10,220 bases of DNA, taken from an uncultured beta proteobacterium. Its GTDB lineage: Bacteria; Pseudomonadota; Gammaproteobacteria; Burkholderiales; Burkholderiaceae_C. The stretch covers positions 1 through 10,220 of the forward strand of contig CAIQEX010000237.1 in NCBI GenBank assembly GCA_903870955.1. Direction: 5' to 3'. Below are positions 3,370 to 9,833 of the stretch, one piece after another; within the stretch, counting starts at the first letter, position 1, and each line of letters starts with the position of its first letter. The notes beneath the pieces were generated by a model, which did not search any database, was not told the DNA's origin, and saw nothing but the letters and a program-made list of their open reading frames with translations. Made by a program: the position numbers and the translations under genes.

Positions 3370-3696
3370 ATGACGAAGGCATCGAAACTCTTTGCGGCAT
3401 TTGCATGGAGCGCGGTTTCATTGGCTCTTTCCAGCGAGGCAAGCGCCGCCGGTGGACGCATCACATTCTCCGGGGCACTGGTTAATCCAAGCTGCCAGCT
3501 CAGCCTAACGCTGGCCTCGCGTGGCAACGATGAACATCGTGGAACAGTCCACACATCGGAGTGCGGCAACGCCCCTTCAACCTTCTCCAACACCGTTAAT
3601 GTCGGTAGCCGAAGCACTTCGATCGGTCAGGGCGTTGGGCAAATATTGCTTCTTGAAACGAAAGCTGGGCCAGTGCTGGAAGTCAGCTACAACTAA
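3370..3696 (+). CDS. Short type 1 pilin-like fimbrial protein
   Basis: This 108-residue protein has a Sec signal peptide (hydrophobic core about 7-20, cleavage likely after the SEASA of residues 22-26). A pilin-like start follows, GGRITFSGALVNPSCQL, with Cys42 and Cys65 able to form the pilin disulfide. It ends in VLEVSYN, with the penultimate Tyr typical of chaperone-usher subunits. The mature part is only about 82 residues, against roughly 150 for the two pilins upstream. The loss therefore seems internal, since both ends are pilin-like. The ATG is backed by a strong Shine-Dalgarno (AGGAG, 3359-3363). It is transcribed toward the fimbrial operon and shares a terminator hairpin with it. It may be a minor or capping subunit, or a degenerate pilin; short pilins of this size are known in Proteobacteria, so it need not be broken. 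Confidence 0.75.
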   Translation: MTKASKLFAAFAWSAVSLALSSEASAAGGRITFSGALVNPSCQLSLTLASRGNDEHRGTVHTSECGNAPSTFSNTVNVGSRSTSIGQGVGQILLLETKAGPVLEVSYN

Positions 3697-3699
3697 GAG

Positions 3700-3728
3700 C
3701 GAATAGTCTTTGTGAAAAAGACTACTCG
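3700..3728. terminator. Bidirectional hairpin between short pilin and adhesin
   Basis: TAGTCTTT (3704-3711) pairs perfectly with AAAGACTA (3717-3724) around a 5-base loop. After one A/C mismatch the stem continues with CGA (3700-3702) against TCG (3726-3728). The hairpin begins 4 bases after the short pilin stop and contains the adhesin stop codon (3722-3724). Its place between two convergent ends fits a shared terminator. There is no U tract beyond the stem on either strand, so an intrinsic mechanism is not certain. Confidence 0.5.
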
Positions 3729-4768
3729 TAGAAAAGGTTGAGCGTCGCCACGCCCTTTACAAGGCCAGAGCCGACGACACCACCGGCGTAATATTGTGCA
3801 TAGTGCTTGATCTGGTAATGGCCTGCTGTCGACACAGTGGCGAGATTTGAATCACCGCCATTGCGAATAGGCGCCATGACACTATCCAGCAACTGCACAA
3901 AAACATTGCTGGCCGGTCCGGAGGCACTGTTGGCGATCGTTGTGGGACCAGCTGCACCCTCCGCAAAGGCCCAACTTGCGTTCACCGAATAAATTTCCCC
4001 CACATTTGTACAACCGCTAAGCGCCAAGGTAAACGGTGTCCGCCCGGCGGTAGCGCCCGCTCCGCCGCTTAGCGCGCCGGTACCAATCTTCGGCAAGGTG
4101 ACAGTTACGTTCTGAGTCGTTAACGTGCAAGCAGTTGAAATGAGACTAAAGGACGAATTAAGCGTACTTGACAGTCCACTCGTACTCGAATACCGCGCCC
4201 ACCACGGGAACACGCTAGTGAGGGCAGTTAAGTTGTTAGCGGCAATATTGGTCGCGGAAGTCATTTTCAAACTTATCGGGAATGAAATGGTGTACGTGCA
4301 AGTCGTAATTGCAGGTTGATTGAACGTTATGTAAGTTAGACCGCCGCTGCTAGCACTTGCAACGAAAGGGCACCTGCCAGTTGGCGAATTCAAATAGGTC
4401 GGAGTTGTAGATTGAACGGTAATCCCGCTCGCTCCGGGTAAGGGCGCGCCGGTACTGTCAACCGGAATCTCCACGGTCAAGGGATAGGCTGTTGGATTGC
4501 TATTCCTGCAGTTGGTCAGCGTTACCTGCAAATTTCCCCGATAGAAAACGGTTCCAACCTGCGTTCCAGAGTCAATGACTCTGTCACCTGCAAAAGGCGA
4601 TGTGATTGACGCGCTCGAACAGGTAATGGCGGATGCAAACACCGTCTTCATCCCCATCAAAATCGTCATCGCCAAAAGCACCTTCACGAGCCAACTTAGA
4701 CGGCTGCCAAATTGCTGCGTTGGGCTCTGTTGCGTAGAAACCGAACCGGCGAAAATAAGTTTGTGCAT
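3722..4768 (-). CDS. Two-domain fimbrial tip adhesin
   Basis: Read from the ATG at 4768 this is a 348-residue secreted protein, last gene of the fimbrial operon. A long basic n-region precedes a hydrophobic segment (about 24-45) ending in VFASA, the likely signal peptidase site. The N-terminal domain (about 48-210) has four cysteines (50, 87, 133, 157), is rich in Ser and Thr, and would be the receptor-binding domain. The C-terminal domain (about 213-348) is a pilin fold with Cys214 and Cys253, the LPKIGTGALSG segment shared with the pilins, and the end LNLFYE with penultimate Tyr. Only the pilin domain is recognisable; the ligand cannot be told. The usher stop is 16 bases upstream. A TTG at 4801 would lengthen it by 11 residues and overlap the usher by 17 bases. 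A GTG at 4687 would give a compact 20-residue signal peptide. By position it corresponds to Bordetella FimD. Confidence 0.85.
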   Translation of the reverse strand: MHKLIFAGSVSTQQSPTQQFGSRLSWLVKVLLAMTILMGMKTVFASAITCSSASITSPFAGDRVIDSGTQVGTVFYRGNLQVTLTNCRNSNPTAYPLTVEIPVDSTGAPLPGASGITVQSTTPTYLNSPTGRCPFVASASSGGLTYITFNQPAITTCTYTISFPISLKMTSATNIAANNLTALTSVFPWWARYSSTSGLSSTLNSSFSLISTACTLTTQNVTVTLPKIGTGALSGGAGATAGRTPFTLALSGCTNVGEIYSVNASWAFAEGAAGPTTIANSASGPASNVFVQLLDSVMAPIRNGGDSNLATVSTAGHYQIKHYAQYYAGGVVGSGLVKGVATLNLFYE

Positions 4769-4784
4769 AGAGGTTTGACCGGTA

Positions 4785-7775
4785 TTAGTGGGCGCTGTCA
4801 AGCAGACTCACTTGGGATTTTTCGGGCTTGTCTAACCACTGCACACTGGCAGTGCATGGGCCAGAGCCTTTCGCGACGCTGGACTCCTTCAGGGTCACAC
4901 GGCAACTGCGCTCCTGTCCTGCAGCACCATCTAGCCAACTGGCCAGCAGACCCTCATGAACCTGTGCTGGTTTCACATATACATGGCCTTCTTCGCCAGT
5001 TACGCCCTCCGGACCACTCGGGTCGGACACTCGCGCACCTTTTGGCAACAGCGTGCCATCTGGCAAACGAATGGTAAGCACTGCGCCTCTGACGGCCGTG
5101 TGAGCTGGCTGTGGCACTTGGGGAAGCTGTCGGGTCATTAGTTTGGGAGCAACATTGGCGACCGGTGTGCAGTCAGCCTTTAGTTGAACAATTTTGTGCT
5201 TATGGTCACTGTCTGCAGGTACTGCGTACGGCAGTACACATCGTTGGTCGGCGCCCTCTCCCCACTTCACTGTGAGTTGGCCTTGCGCTTGTGTCACCCG
5301 CGCTTCAAGGCGTCCAGCCTGGCCCACTGCGCCGATCTGCTGATTCTGTTCGTCGTACACATCTGCGGCAAAAGGCAAGGGTCCACCACCGACCAGGCGA
5401 CCCTCAATCAGAATCGTGTGGCCCGCAATAGCGTTGAACTTCAGCATCACCACCGCACCCGCATGGGGCGCTATGACCTGGTCTGTGGCATCCAGTTGCG
5501 TATCCAACGAGGCTTTCGATAAGTCCAGAACGACAGCGTTCGCAGAATAGGGCGTCAAGTACCGTACAACCGAATAGCCACTGCCATTCACAGGTGCACC
5601 TTGATTGCCCTGCACCTCGATGCCTTCACCGTCCTCCACCTTGACCAGTCCGACCGTGTCACCCAGCGTATTGGAAGCGGTGATGCCGCCTGCGTGCAGG
5701 ACCAACCCACCTTCTGCATTGAGCGTCGTGGTGCTGAAGTTGCTGCCGCTGCTAACACCCAATCCAAACTGACCATAGCTACTGCGGTAACTTATATTCC
5801 CTCCAGCCGTGTCATTAGCTGCCGCGTGGGTGGCAAACAGGCCATAGCCATACTCATAGTTATCACCATAGTTGCCCCAATAGCTAGCCTGCGTGCTGTC
5901 GCCACGGAGGTCGTCGTGCTGCTGCGTAACATTGACTGACCCGGTTCGGTTTGCGCGCGAGTCCAGCGGAATGATGAGGCTGACAAAAATCTGAGAATTT
6001 TCCTGCTGCAAACTCGATGCGGCCTGCCTTGTCAGTCCCATAGATGCGGACACCGAGCCAAACTGCTGCGTATAGCCCATCTGGTAGCTGGTGCTTTGAC
6101 CTTCATAGGACCAATACGAGGTGCTGTTGCCCGAAAAGTAGAGCGAACCCCAACGCCCCATGCTCTGGTTCACCGAAACTCTGAGTGCACTTTGCAACCG
6201 GCTACCGCTACCACCAAACGTAGAATTTGCAACCTGGTCCAGCGCGCTGGCCGCATTTTGCAAGGTGAAGAAGTTTTCCGACGAGTAGCGATAGGCGGCC
6301 AAACTGAAGTTAGTCCGGGTGGGCTCAAATAGTTTGGACCAACTTGCGCGCCAACTATCACCATTGCGCGTCTGTTGCCCTGGCGGACTGAACTGCGAAT
6401 GGGTGTAATCAAGCGCCACGGCGCCCAGGGGCGTATTGAAGGCACCGCCCAGCAAATAGGCCTGATATTCTTTGGTGACGGAAAACCCAGCCTCAGCAGT
6501 GAACGTATTGCTCAACCCGTACTGAACCTGTCCCTGCGCCACATTGATATCTGATACGGATTGGCGGTACTTGCCGCCCGAAAGACTGTAGCGATAGCCC
6601 CCTTCGCGCAACAGTTGTGGCGTAGACGAATAGGCCACCTGTGAGGTACGCCGACTGCCATCGGCCTCGATCACCGTGACTTCCAGGTCGCCACCGAAAC
6701 CCGTGGGATAAAGGTCATTGATCACAAAGGGGCCGGGCGCCACACTGGTCTCGTACAGCAAAACGCCGTTTTGCTTCACTTGCACGTTTGCTTGCGACAA
6801 GGCCTGACCACGAATGGTGGGGGCAAAGCCCCGAAGCGAGTCCGGCAACATGCGGTCGTCACTGGCTAGCGTGACACCCTGCAGACTGTAGCTATCAAAG
6901 AGCTGACCATCGGTATAGGCATCGCCCAGCACAAAGGACGAGCGCAAGTCCACCACGTCATGCCGCAAATAGGTGTTGATACTTTGGTATGTCGTACCGC
7001 TGCTTGAGCCAGAACCATTGCTGTCCACCAGGTTGCCGTCATGGCGCAATTGCCAGCCGCCCAAGTTAATACCGGTATTGAGCCCAAGGTAGCTTTGCGA
7101 TGCGCTCCCACTGTCGGCATGGGTCTGGTAGTTGCTAAAGCGGTAATTCAGCAGGGCTGCGTTGACGCCGTAGTCCCAGCTTTCCGGATCCACATAGCCA
7201 CGGGCACGCCGCGAGGTCAAAGCCTGCGGCACCGTCAGATCCAGGCGTTGCTCCGAAACCTCAAAATGCGAGGTACCGCCTTCAATAATTTGATCCAGTG
7301 ACAGGCATGAAGGGATCGGTGCATCAGCAACAGTCGGCTCGGCGCCTTCTTTAGCCAGATTCAAACCCAGCATGCTGCGCGCCTGTGCACTCAACGCAGC
7401 GCGGTCAATACCCAGGCGATTGACAATCGACTTGTTGAGGCAGGCAGATGCCTGAGAACCTTGCCCGTCCATCTTGATCAGAATATCGGCACGTGCCAGC
7501 CAATTGCCATTCAGATAAATGTCAGCGCGGTAATTGCCTGGCAACACCAAGTTGCCCGTATTGAAGCGACTTAAGTCCACGCGTGGGCCACCAGGGCTTC
7601 GAATCAAGAACTGCTCGTTAAAGTCCAACGCCACACTGGACGAATCCAGTGCCAGTTGAGACTTATCGACGGACTTCTGCTGTGCAGCAACGGGGAAGCT
7701 ACTCCAGAGCAGCAGGCACCCGATGATCTCCGCTACAAGAATGGAATTGACGCGTGAAAATGGAGGAGTGGTCAC
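4785..7775 (-). CDS. Fimbrial outer-membrane usher (FimD/PapC family) with extended C-terminus
   Basis: The usher is the 24-stranded outer-membrane pore that receives chaperone-subunit complexes and assembles the fimbria. The order is: signal peptide about 1-31; periplasmic N-domain about 49-190 with Cys112 and Cys157; beta-barrel strands; plug about 316-382, with NGVLLYETSVAPGPFVIND, then GGDLEVTVIEADGS; further barrel to about 740; CTD1; and CTD2 at 786-869 with Cys846 and Cys869. FimD of E. coli ends at the corresponding point (about 878 residues). This protein continues to 996, and residues 895-964 resemble CTD2 again (separate entry). The start is a GTG at 7773-7775, 18 bases after the chaperone stop, with only a weak GGA upstream; translation is probably coupled. 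No frameshift is visible, and the sequence between plug and CTD is continuous. By position it corresponds to Bordetella FimC. Confidence 0.96.
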   Translation of the reverse strand: MTTPPFSRVNSILVAEIIGCLLLWSSFPVAAQQKSVDKSQLALDSSSVALDFNEQFLIRSPGGPRVDLSRFNTGNLVLPGNYRADIYLNGNWLARADILIKMDGQGSQASACLNKSIVNRLGIDRAALSAQARSMLGLNLAKEGAEPTVADAPIPSCLSLDQIIEGGTSHFEVSEQRLDLTVPQALTSRRARGYVDPESWDYGVNAALLNYRFSNYQTHADSGSASQSYLGLNTGINLGGWQLRHDGNLVDSNGSGSSSGTTYQSINTYLRHDVVDLRSSFVLGDAYTDGQLFDSYSLQGVTLASDDRMLPDSLRGFAPTIRGQALSQANVQVKQNGVLLYETSVAPGPFVINDLYPTGFGGDLEVTVIEADGSRRTSQVAYSSTPQLLREGGYRYSLSGGKYRQSVSDINVAQGQVQYGLSNTFTAEAGFSVTKEYQAYLLGGAFNTPLGAVALDYTHSQFSPPGQQTRNGDSWRASWSKLFEPTRTNFSLAAYRYSSENFFTLQNAASALDQVANSTFGGSGSRLQSALRVSVNQSMGRWGSLYFSGNSTSYWSYEGQSTSYQMGYTQQFGSVSASMGLTRQAASSLQQENSQIFVSLIIPLDSRANRTGSVNVTQQHDDLRGDSTQASYWGNYGDNYEYGYGLFATHAAANDTAGGNISYRSSYGQFGLGVSSGSNFSTTTLNAEGGLVLHAGGITASNTLGDTVGLVKVEDGEGIEVQGNQGAPVNGSGYSVVRYLTPYSANAVVLDLSKASLDTQLDATDQVIAPHAGAVVMLKFNAIAGHTILIEGRLVGGGPLPFAADVYDEQNQQIGAVGQAGRLEARVTQAQGQLTVKWGEGADQRCVLPYAVPADSDHKHKIVQLKADCTPVANVAPKLMTRQLPQVPQPAHTAVRGAVLTIRLPDGTLLPKGARVSDPSGPEGVTGEEGHVYVKPAQVHEGLLASWLDGAAGQERSCRVTLKESSVAKGSGPCTASVQWLDKPEKSQVSLLDSAH
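4884..5093 (-). other. Second PapC_C-like domain in the usher tail
   Basis: These bases encode usher residues 895-964. Aligned by eye to CTD2 (786-869), the two share the pattern small/hydrophobic strand, G-x-LP-x-A-x-V-x-D, a central G-x-G turn, hydrophobic strand, L-x-x-x-W, then Q-x-x-C. In the first unit these are GGPLPFAADVYD, LTVKWGEGADQRC; in the second DGTLLPKGARVSD, LLASWLDGAAGQERSC. A linker rich in Pro, Gln and Ala (870-894) separates them. Cys958 and Cys974 could form a disulfide like Cys846-Cys869 but closer together. Tandem duplication of CTD2 is inferred from this manual alignment. Confidence 0.6.
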
Positions 7776-7793
7776 AATGGAATCCGTGTCGGC

Positions 7794-8537
7794 TCAAGGG
7801 GCCACTTTGAGGTCGGACGTGCCATCGACAAACGCACCGTAGTCATTGACATATTTGAACTTCACCGAAGTGGCGGGTTGGCCCTCCTTGTAGGCCTCTT
7901 CAAATACAAATGTCTGCTCGCTCAATGGGGGGACCATGCCCGACATAGAGTTACCTAGTGAGCCAGTCAAACTTGCCAAAGCCACCTCACCCAGCGAGAC
8001 AAAAAAGGGCGTGGGATTAAACGCAACCAACTTGAGCGATGGTCCATCGCGAACCACCCGCCAATTGAGCAGACCTGGAGCCAGCGCCGGGTCACCGGTC
8101 AGCTCCGGTGGACGCAAGAACAACTTGATGCGGCTGCGCACGGCAAACTGCAGGTTGTTTTCGCCGGCCGACGCATCGGGCTTGGGTGGAATCTCCAACA
8201 CGTTGAGCCAGTACACCGTTTCACGGTCCCGCGCTGCCTTCCCCTCGCCGGTATAGACCAAACGCAAGGTCTGCGAATGCGTTGGGTCGATACGAAACAT
8301 CGGCGGACTCAGGATGAAAGGCACGGAAATAGTTTCCGGGCTTGCAGAGACATTGCCATCATCAATCCAGGCTTGCACCAAGCTGGGGAAGCTTCCGTTA
8401 TTGGTCAGGCGGACACTAACGTCTTTTGCATTCAAAGGGTATACAACCCGTGTGCCCGTAATAACCACGCTGGCCATACTGCTTGCGCAAAGCACCAGTC
8501 CGGTAATGAAGGTCAATAGAAGAGATCGTGCGGTCAT
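7794..8537 (-). CDS. Periplasmic fimbrial chaperone (PapD/FimC family)
   Basis: This 247-residue protein folds pilus subunits in the periplasm by donating its G1 strand, then delivers them to the usher. The signal peptide spans about 1-22 (hydrophobic core SLLLTFITGLVLCASSMA). Mature Arg8 (Arg30, in TGTRVVYP) and the conserved Lys (Lys138, in RSRIKLFLRP, mature about 116) match the two residues of PapD that anchor the subunit C-terminus. The family motif appears as DRETVYWLNVLEIPP (104-118). The run between it and the G1 strand is short, which suggests the FGS (short F1-G1 loop) class that builds rod-like pili. The second domain follows from about 145 to the end. The ATG has no strong Shine-Dalgarno. 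It lies 65 bases after pilin B and 18 bases before the usher. By position it corresponds to Bordetella FimB. Confidence 0.96.
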   Translation of the reverse strand: MTARSLLLTFITGLVLCASSMASVVITGTRVVYPLNAKDVSVRLTNNGSFPSLVQAWIDDGNVSASPETISVPFILSPPMFRIDPTHSQTLRLVYTGEGKAARDRETVYWLNVLEIPPKPDASAGENNLQFAVRSRIKLFLRPPELTGDPALAPGLLNWRVVRDGPSLKLVAFNPTPFFVSLGEVALASLTGSLGNSMSGMVPPLSEQTFVFEEAYKEGQPATSVKFKYVNDYGAFVDGTSDLKVAP

Positions 8538-8602
8538 AGTTGTTCTTATTTGATTGGCGCGAAAAAGGGGACGTACTCTGCTGACTATTTGAAGATAGGC
8601 AG

Positions 8603-9133
8603 CTACTGGTAAGCCAGGGTGTAGACAACTGAGGAGTTGAACCCACCCGCTGTTACGGGCGTTGCGTTGGCGTAGTAAGCGATGGTGTAATTTTGCGTAG
8701 AGCCTTGGTTCACAATGGAAGTAGACGCTGTGTTTTGCGAACCGTACGAACCCGCAAGATTCACGATACTGCCATCCGCGTTCTTTATTTGACCGTCCAC
8801 TGGTGCTGCGCTGGAGCTCTGATTGATCAGACGACCATCCGCATTGGTCGTTGGTCCGGCTTCAAAGTAGGTATTCACCAACGTCGCTGGGCCAACACAA
8901 TTCGTCAACACGATCGAAAAATGGGTGTCACCCGCGGTGCTGCCAACGCCCGTAAGCGCAGAAGTGCCTAACTTGGGCAAGGCAATATTGAAATTTGGAA
9001 TTCCGCCATTGATGGTGCAGGTCTCCAGCAAAACCTCTCCATTGACCGTTACCGTACCGTCCGCTGAAAAAGCAGGCGCAGCGCCAAATACCAGCGCAGA
9101 ACATAGTAGAGGGGAATACCATCTAGTAAACAT
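8603..9133 (-). CDS. Type 1-like fimbrial subunit (pilin B)
   Basis: A 176-residue pilin with a signal peptide ending near PAFSA (residues 20-24). The mature start is DGTVTVNGEVLLETCTINGG, with the disulfide pair Cys39 and Cys79. Landmarks shared with pilin A are ALPKLGTSALTG with TAGDTHFSI (51-74), YFEAGPTTNADGRLIN (89-104), and the end VVYTLAYQ with penultimate Tyr175. The short N-terminus before the first strand and the DGT-V-x-V-x-G pattern recall the Bordetella Fim2/Fim3/FimX subunits. The two pilins are clear paralogues that have diverged well, so this one may be a second major subunit or a minor adaptor. The ATG at 9131-9133 has a weak GTGAG about 10 bases upstream. The chaperone gene follows after 65 bases with no strong hairpin between, so the operon should continue through. 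Confidence 0.93.
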   Translation of the reverse strand: MFTRWYSPLLCSALVFGAAPAFSADGTVTVNGEVLLETCTINGGIPNFNIALPKLGTSALTGVGSTAGDTHFSIVLTNCVGPATLVNTYFEAGPTTNADGRLINQSSSAAPVDGQIKNADGSIVNLAGSYGSQNTASTSIVNQGSTQNYTIAYYANATPVTAGGFNSSVVYTLAYQ

Positions 9134-9207: not shown

Positions 9208-9750
9208 TTAGTTGTAAACCAACGAATAAGTGATCGAACTATTCACCAAACCTGAGGTAGAGACTCCAGTCGCGTAGTACCTTGCGATGAAGTTGGAAGT
9301 ACCAGCTGGATTCGTAAAGGTGCCCGGTGTTACGCCTTGCAAACCCGTTCCTTTAGTAAGATTGATCGCAACAGCTGTATTGGCTTGATTGAGCAATTCA
9401 ATTTCAACAAACTTTGCACCAGCGGTGGTGGTATTCATCAGCCTTCCGTCAGCCAAGTTGACATTTGGAGTTGCCTCAAAGTAGGCCGTGTATCCTGCGA
9501 CCGATGCAGAGCAAGCCGTTACATTGATGGAGAAATTGGTCGCACCGGCAGTCTTACCAGCAGCGGCCAAATCAGCAACACTGACTTTTGGCAATGCGAC
9601 TGTAAAGTCTTTGCCAGCGCCACCATTGATAGTACAGGTTGAATCGGTCAGTTCACCCGTAAAAGTAATCGTGCCATCAGATGCCTGAGCAGCCATAGGA
9701 ATGCACAAAGCTGCGGAAATTGCCAGACCCAAGATATTGAGTTTTTTCAT
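9208..9750 (-). CDS. Type 1-like fimbrial major subunit (pilin A)
   Basis: This 180-residue pilin is the first gene of the operon and so the best candidate for the major subunit. The start is the ATG at 9748-9750, giving the classic signal MKKLNILGLAISAALC with cleavage after AQA (residue 23); an upstream TTG at 9777 would only add a non-signal-like leader. AAAGA lies about 9 bases upstream. The mature part begins SDGTITFTGELTDSTCTINGG, with the disulfide pair Cys39 and Cys80. Then come VALPKVSVADLAAAGKTAGATNFSI (51-75), YFEATPNVNLADGRLMN (90-106), and the end ITYSLVYN with penultimate Tyr179. The first strand, DGTITFTG, resembles that of Bordetella fimbrial subunits. The gene is AT-richer than the housekeeping genes (23 GC of 60 in the line starting 9361). 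Confidence 0.94.
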   Translation of the reverse strand: MKKLNILGLAISAALCIPMAAQASDGTITFTGELTDSTCTINGGAGKDFTVALPKVSVADLAAAGKTAGATNFSINVTACSASVAGYTAYFEATPNVNLADGRLMNTTTAGAKFVEIELLNQANTAVAINLTKGTGLQGVTPGTFTNPAGTSNFIARYYATGVSTSGLVNSSITYSLVYN

Positions 9751-9833
9751 AAAATAATCTTTCGTTTTCTTACACAAATAGAACGTCCCGATTCGGAAAA
9801 AGTTCCAAAATGGTTCGACTGAACTGTCCCTGT

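Follow-up and report, generated by a model that had tools for sequence, protein, structure and literature searches.

An additional CTD2-like C-terminal domain in the usher of a chaperone-usher pilus operon from an uncultured beta proteobacterium

The window analysed here, a stretch of 10,220 nucleotides from an uncultured beta proteobacterium (assembly GCA_903870955.1, contig CAIQEX010000237.1), contains a chaperone-usher pilus operon on its minus strand, with genes in the order pilin, pilin, chaperone, usher and adhesin-like subunit. The two pilin subunits are 189 aa (9208..9777; PF16970 and PF00419) and 176 aa (8603..9133; PF16970) in length, and are followed by a periplasmic PapD-type chaperone of 247 aa (7794..8537) and by the usher gene (4785..7775). 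The last gene (3722..4801, also minus) encodes a fimbrial subunit with an extra N-terminal part, probably adhesin-like; according to NCBIfam its pilin-like part begins at about residue 207, and Pfam gives no match. Its open frame (4801..3722) overlaps the end of the usher gene by 17 bp, and its start is likely the ATG at 4768. Just past this gene, and convergent to the operon, lies a 108-aa ORF (3370..3696, plus strand) with a signal-peptide-like start and, as read by eye, a pilin-like N-terminus (GGRITFSGALVNPSCQLSL). This ORF is kept in the same place at three related loci (74% at L056, 51% over 78 aa at L057, and 48% at L058), has no Pfam match above the cut-off, and possibly encodes a short pilin-like or regulatory secreted protein.

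The usher gene has a GTG start and an open frame of 996 codons without internal stops (7775..4785, minus), and its product is the only PF00577 usher found in its own genome (86.84% complete). The domain set of the FimD/PapC type is present in order, with Pfam matches to PapC_N at residues 52-214, to Usher (plug, barrel and CTD1) at 229-780 and to PapC_C in two stretches. The protein aligns to FimD (9fw9) over residues 50-872 (E 2.2e-130). The normal CTD2 occupies residues 781-869 (5169..5435, minus; PapC_C match 796-853) and contains Phe802, Glu824, Trp838 and the pair Cys846/Cys869. An earlier note on this DNA placed the normal end of the usher near residue 869 with cysteines at 846 and 869, and both are found at those positions. 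Beyond this point comes a linker containing Pro and Ala (residues 870-894; 5094..5168, minus), which is poorly conserved (residues 871-892 are 54.5% identical to L056 over 22 positions) and is mostly modelled with pLDDT below 50. The linker leads into a third C-terminal domain, for which we coin the name CTD3, at about residues 895-982 (4830..5093, minus; PapC_C match 900-963); its features are seven predicted strands, an LPKGA motif that includes Lys912, Tyr933, Trp947 and the pair Cys958/Cys974. The final residues, 983-996 (4788..4829, minus; ...SQVSLLDSAH), are modelled with low confidence and are kept in relatives.

Several lines of evidence make it very nearly certain that the tail is an extra domain of the CTD2 family. 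The two PapC_C matches that the earlier note had led one to expect are both returned by Pfam, and the tail by itself (residues 866-996) matches PapC_C over 900-963 with E 6.3e-9 and 35.9 bits, above the curated cut-off of 27 bits for PF13953. CTD2 and the tail align by BLASTP over 61 aa with 31% identity, and in tests with two matrices none of 5000 shuffles of the tail scored as high as the real sequence. In a profile comparison by hhalign, seven tails against nine CTD2s from single-domain ushers gave a probability of 95.9% (E 5.3e-9). A plug-type domain was rejected as the identity of the tail, since the same tails scored 0.3% against a control profile of six plug domains. At E up to 1, the tail alone matches usher families only among the Pfam and NCBIfam models (PapC_C and four NCBIfam usher models). 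Among PDB sequences, the tail-only search at E up to 10 returned only 2kt6 and 3l48, both of them the PapC C-terminal domain and both weak matches (E 0.14 each); a nine-tail profile gave no match to PDB sequences at E up to 1. An AlphaFold model built from nine tails only has seven strands, at about residues 895-903, 915-918, 921-928, 931-934, 943-948, 955-962 and 974-982, with pLDDT 70-90 at 69 of 132 residues; the mean of 65.1 reflects the poorly predicted linker and end. The cysteine pair Cys958/Cys974 matches the CTD2 pair Cys846/Cys869, and is present in all seven full-tail protein clusters (the window's own counted) and in the Ideonella usher described below. The earlier note had aligned residues 895-964 with CTD2; the likeness is borne out, and the limits need redrawing to about 895-982, because Cys974 lies beyond residue 964. 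The Q-x-x-C end that was said to recur does so as a similar ending with different spacing (Q844-R-C846 in CTD2, Q954-E-R-S-C958 in the tail).

CTD2 and the plug have been described as similar folds, so the extra domain could also sit in the channel or at the pilus base. In such an arrangement it would rest in or under the idle usher channel as a gate, or would hold the base of the finished pilus. The low-confidence and poorly conserved linker would permit this placement, and no pilus terminator was identified among the genes of the window other than the two pilins and the ORF at 3370. Against it, the tail sequence fits CTD2 and not the plug (see above), and the sites common to the tail and PapC are CTD2 sites. 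We regard a gate or base anchor as unlikely.

The source of the extra domain is a separate question. The earlier note proposed a tandem duplication of CTD2; the second CTD2-like domain stands, and descent from the usher's own CTD2 is neither shown nor rejected. The best scores of the tail profile are on the CTD2s of other ushers (26.4, 25.6 and 24.9 bits), as against 15.3 bits at best on the tailed ushers' own CTD2 among the best 50 matches; in Ideonella the profile scores 19.7 on the tail and 12.6 on the usher's own CTD2. In a domain tree the window tails branch close to CTD2s belonging to a distant usher group (89/90), and the long-branched Ideonella tail is found at another position; with 69 columns, the tree is poorly resolved and has too few positions to settle the donor. 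Constraining all tails to a single clade is not rejected (p-AU 0.449), nor is a clade that also takes in their own CTD2s (p-AU 0.448). Thus the domain sequences establish neither duplication of the usher's own CTD2 nor a shared ancestry for the tails of Ideonella and the window.

Searching 5.8 billion proteins with residues 770-996 yielded 25 clusters, including the window's own. Six of these (P0003-P0008) have the full tail and match residues 770-996 at 72-84%. Cluster P0009 (936 aa) has two PapC_C matches and ends directly after the first tail cysteine, without the second; P0010 is tailless, and P0011 stops short within CTD2. In 15 further usher clusters such a domain is absent from the alignment and one CTD2 match each is found, with Pfam having been run on 10 of the 24 non-identical clusters. 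A search of the same proteins with the tail only gave eight clusters including the window's own, all of the window's usher type. Within the genus, 24 of 103 genomes have an usher match and four have close orthologues (73-100%). Two of the four, the window's own genome (G000) and G006, are tailed, and two, G014 and G490, are tailless; by contig and coordinates the last three correspond to loci L056, L057 and L058, respectively. L056 has the same downstream genes as the window, and its upstream genes are not seen because the contig ends inside the usher. The earlier note had suggested that the tail might track with this operon type, and it does not do so strictly: two relatives with the same operon are tailless.

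A more distant example of the same layout comes from Ideonella sp. 4Y16 (G1111), found in the family set of 399 genomes through its paired PapC_C frame. Its usher, identical to cluster P0028, has an open frame of 1035 codons (1001 aa as annotated) with PapC_C in two stretches by Pfam. The operon has the window's order, namely pilin, pilin, chaperone (52%), usher (38%) and adhesin-like subunit (34%), and the usher occurs in 2 of 16 genomes of its genus. A wide distribution of the tail was considered and rejected, given how seldom two PapC_C matches share one frame: in the relatives set this is so in 2 of 61 genomes (G000 and G006; any PapC_C in 11), in the class set in 1 of 369 (the window's own; any match in 23) and in the family set in 2 of 399 (G000 and G1111; any match in 74), where no more than 16 (class) and 14 (family) candidates per genome were scored, so that weak second copies may be missed. 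In the order set, the only full match to the tail protein among 399 genomes is the window's own; eight other matches have E values of 1.5e-4 to 9.7e-4, seven of them in frames of 829-956 aa and the eighth (G338) in a frame of 111 aa. The phylum set has a match in 60 of 398 genomes; even the window's own second PapC_C is absent among the matches listed, so that pairs in this set may be missed. In a plasmid collection the single match, a weak one, was an Escherichia albertii usher (34.7%, E 4e-3), and a match in G001, interrupted by four stops, was taken as chance.

Comparison with L056 reveals that CTD3 is under purifying selection. The dN/dS ratio is 0.097 in the tail domain and 0.105 across the tail as a whole, compared to 0.070 in CTD2 and 0.072 in residues 145-780, all four values being rough because synonymous sites are near saturation (dS 1.0-1.8); the 22-residue linker has diverged too far for an estimate. 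These results bear on the possibility that the tail is an artefact of a lost stop codon, read-through or misassembly. The genome assembly is fragmented (787 contigs), but the same tail is found in other clusters and in a second assembly (L056), a related tail occurs in Ideonella, and both the purifying selection and the conserved C-terminal residues argue against an accident, leaving this explanation with next to no probability. Read-through after a lost stop, which the earlier note had named as the case that would undo its reading, is excluded by the tails in seven other clusters, the dN/dS of about 0.10 and the shared layout in Ideonella.

The history of the tail was approached with a tree of usher cores truncated after CTD2, so that the tails themselves do not contribute. 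The tree groups Ideonella with the window clade (support 95/90) and places two tailless ushers, P0010 and L028 (at the L057 locus), next to the tailed P0008 (100/100, or 100/99 in a tree without Ideonella). The simplest reading suggests one gain of the tail before the two genera split and one later loss, although Ideonella and the window clade may also have gained their tails separately. The tailless L057 and L058 lack roughly 100 codons in frame; they still end in a short stretch that resembles the C-terminus of the tailed ushers, and they still overlap the adhesin gene. The clean, in-frame nature of this loss, with the other operon genes retained, would fit a tolerated relic: a domain that was duplicated or captured, folds, is kept mainly for the stability of the protein and is cheap to lose. 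The early end of P0009 past the first tail cysteine, which may be a contig end, a frame change or a true end, and a tail dN/dS somewhat above that of other parts, would fit the same explanation. However, if the tree is right the domain has been retained since before two genera split, and Lys912 and Tyr933 are invariant at positions equivalent to PapC contact sites (see below). We consider a relic rather improbable, while giving it more weight than a gate or anchor.

Other ushers of the window's genus also have extended C-terminal ends. Like the window usher, those of G481 and G483 (L063 and L062) and of G436 (L061) have two PapC_C stretches, but in the core tree they do not belong to the window/Ideonella clade, and the LPKGA motif is missing from them. 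In G481 and G483 the second PapC_C follows the first almost directly, with the region of its first strand missing, and both copies group together in the domain tree (98/65), as a real tandem duplication would; these two ushers are apparently independent of the window tail. The L061 usher (8672..5718, minus) is a 985-aa frame on a long branch of the core tree, where its placement is unsure; the Trp and Cys usual in CTD2 are missing from the first of its two copies and present in the second. Two other usher lineages of the genus thus carry two PapC_C domains, apparently gained independently, which suggests that the C-terminal end of the usher has been extended more than once. Loci L030, L031 and L033-L037 of the genus have open frames of 920-1028 aa with one CTD2 match worth the name, and, judged from the position of that match, the extra length follows CTD2 in some of them and precedes it in the rest. 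More distant ushers (L030, L031, L035, L050 and P0012) have long C-terminal extensions containing Pro, Thr and Ala, with Gln at the site of PapC Trp767, and a second domain was not found in them.

The contacts made by CTD2 in PapC provide a guide to what the added domain might do. In one structural study, PapC CTD2 is reported to engage two sites on the chaperone one after the other, by way of F732 and W767, and is proposed to shift between these sites during hand-over; the mutants F732A, W767A and L765A/W767A are disrupted in pilus assembly, and P744, F745 and W781 contact the NTD (PMC8410936). The corresponding sites were mapped, at the level of sequence alignment only, with HMMER alignments and a MAFFT alignment of 76 distinct domains (78 found) plus PapC and FimD. 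The mapped residues are L789, P801, F802, R822, E824 and W838 in the window CTD2, and V899, P911, K912, H931, Y933 and W947 in the tail. The counts that follow leave out six domains of other tandem ushers and the two references, and the 50 single CTD2s among them are not independent, since they come from window-protein or PapC_C searches in related genomes and include near copies. At the W767 site, all ten tails have Tyr and the preceding CTD2s have Glu (9/10) or Gln (1/10); an aromatic is present in 32 of the 50 single CTD2s and missing in 18. The F745 site is Lys in every tail (10/10) and Phe in every preceding CTD2 (10/10); in the single CTD2s it is Phe in 33 of 50 and never Lys (0/50). The F732 site says little, because Phe is kept neither in the tails (Val in 8, Leu in 1 and Lys in 1 of 10) nor in most single CTD2s (mostly Leu, with Phe in 3 of 50). 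Nor does either the aromatic at the W767 site or the tail appear indispensable, because 18 of 50 single CTD2s lack the aromatic and so do the CTD2s of the tailless relatives (P0010 and L057/L058), in which the full operon is kept.

These patterns suggest that the added domain is turned towards the chaperone rather than the NTD. Our preferred explanation, to which we give a probability of roughly 0.5, is that the third C-terminal domain makes contact with the chaperone as subunits are handed over. CTD3 would fold in the periplasm and would dock on the chaperone of the incoming or the last chaperone-subunit complex, using the face employed by PapC CTD2; Tyr933, at the position of PapC Trp767, would form part of this face. 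Locking onto the usher NTD is not expected of CTD3, because the NTD-contact residue Phe745 of PapC is replaced by the invariant Lys912. CTD3 could then serve as a tethered extra arm for capture or hand-over beside CTD2, which would itself keep the NTD contact through Phe802 and Trp838. The docking role in itself is put forward tentatively, at slightly less than even odds, because F732 is not kept, the tailless CTD2s also lack the aromatic, and the sequences compared are related. The changed F732 equivalent, together with the distance of the tail profile from the usher's own CTD2, would also fit a domain that binds peptidoglycan, another outer-membrane protein or a second usher and so positions the usher; the exclusive matching of the tail to usher families speaks against such a partner, which seems quite improbable. 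A bolder version of chaperone docking is a division of labour in which CTD2 has lost the aromatic chaperone contact and keeps the NTD, and CTD3 has done the reverse, with a relay running NTD - CTD2 - CTD3. This scheme is speculative and on balance doubtful; if true, the two-site sliding of the single PapC CTD2 would be split between two tethered domains. An usher with two CTD2-family domains and complementary contact residues would allow the two roles of CTD2 to be studied apart, and the extra domain may give the pilus assembly machine a second handling arm.

The third C-terminal domain is an addition that the well-studied ushers lack, and it is present here and in a few relatives. The earlier note knew of no described usher with this layout, and among the open-licence papers listed in text searches none was seen to describe a third C-terminal domain in an usher. 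The portions available of one review and two structure papers mention two C-terminal domains only (PMC3960871; PMC8410936; PMC12122975), and one survey, in its available part, gives the size of the usher family as 830 +/- 32 aa (PMC4827864), compared to 996 aa for the window usher. The window usher shares the NTD, barrel, plug, CTD1 and CTD2 with ushers of the FimD/PapC type (PF13954, PF00577 and PF13953). FimD and PapC stop after CTD2, with five domains of which two are C-terminal (PMC8410936 and PMC3960871, as far as their available text goes), whereas the window usher has a third; exactly two C-terminal domains are the rule among described members without being a Pfam requirement, and the window usher departs from it. 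The closest solved counterpart of CTD3 is the PapC CTD2, determined alone (2kt6 and 3l48). Unlike that domain, CTD3 is preceded by a linker and followed by about 14 residues, and at the positions of PapC Phe745 and Trp767 it has Lys and Tyr.
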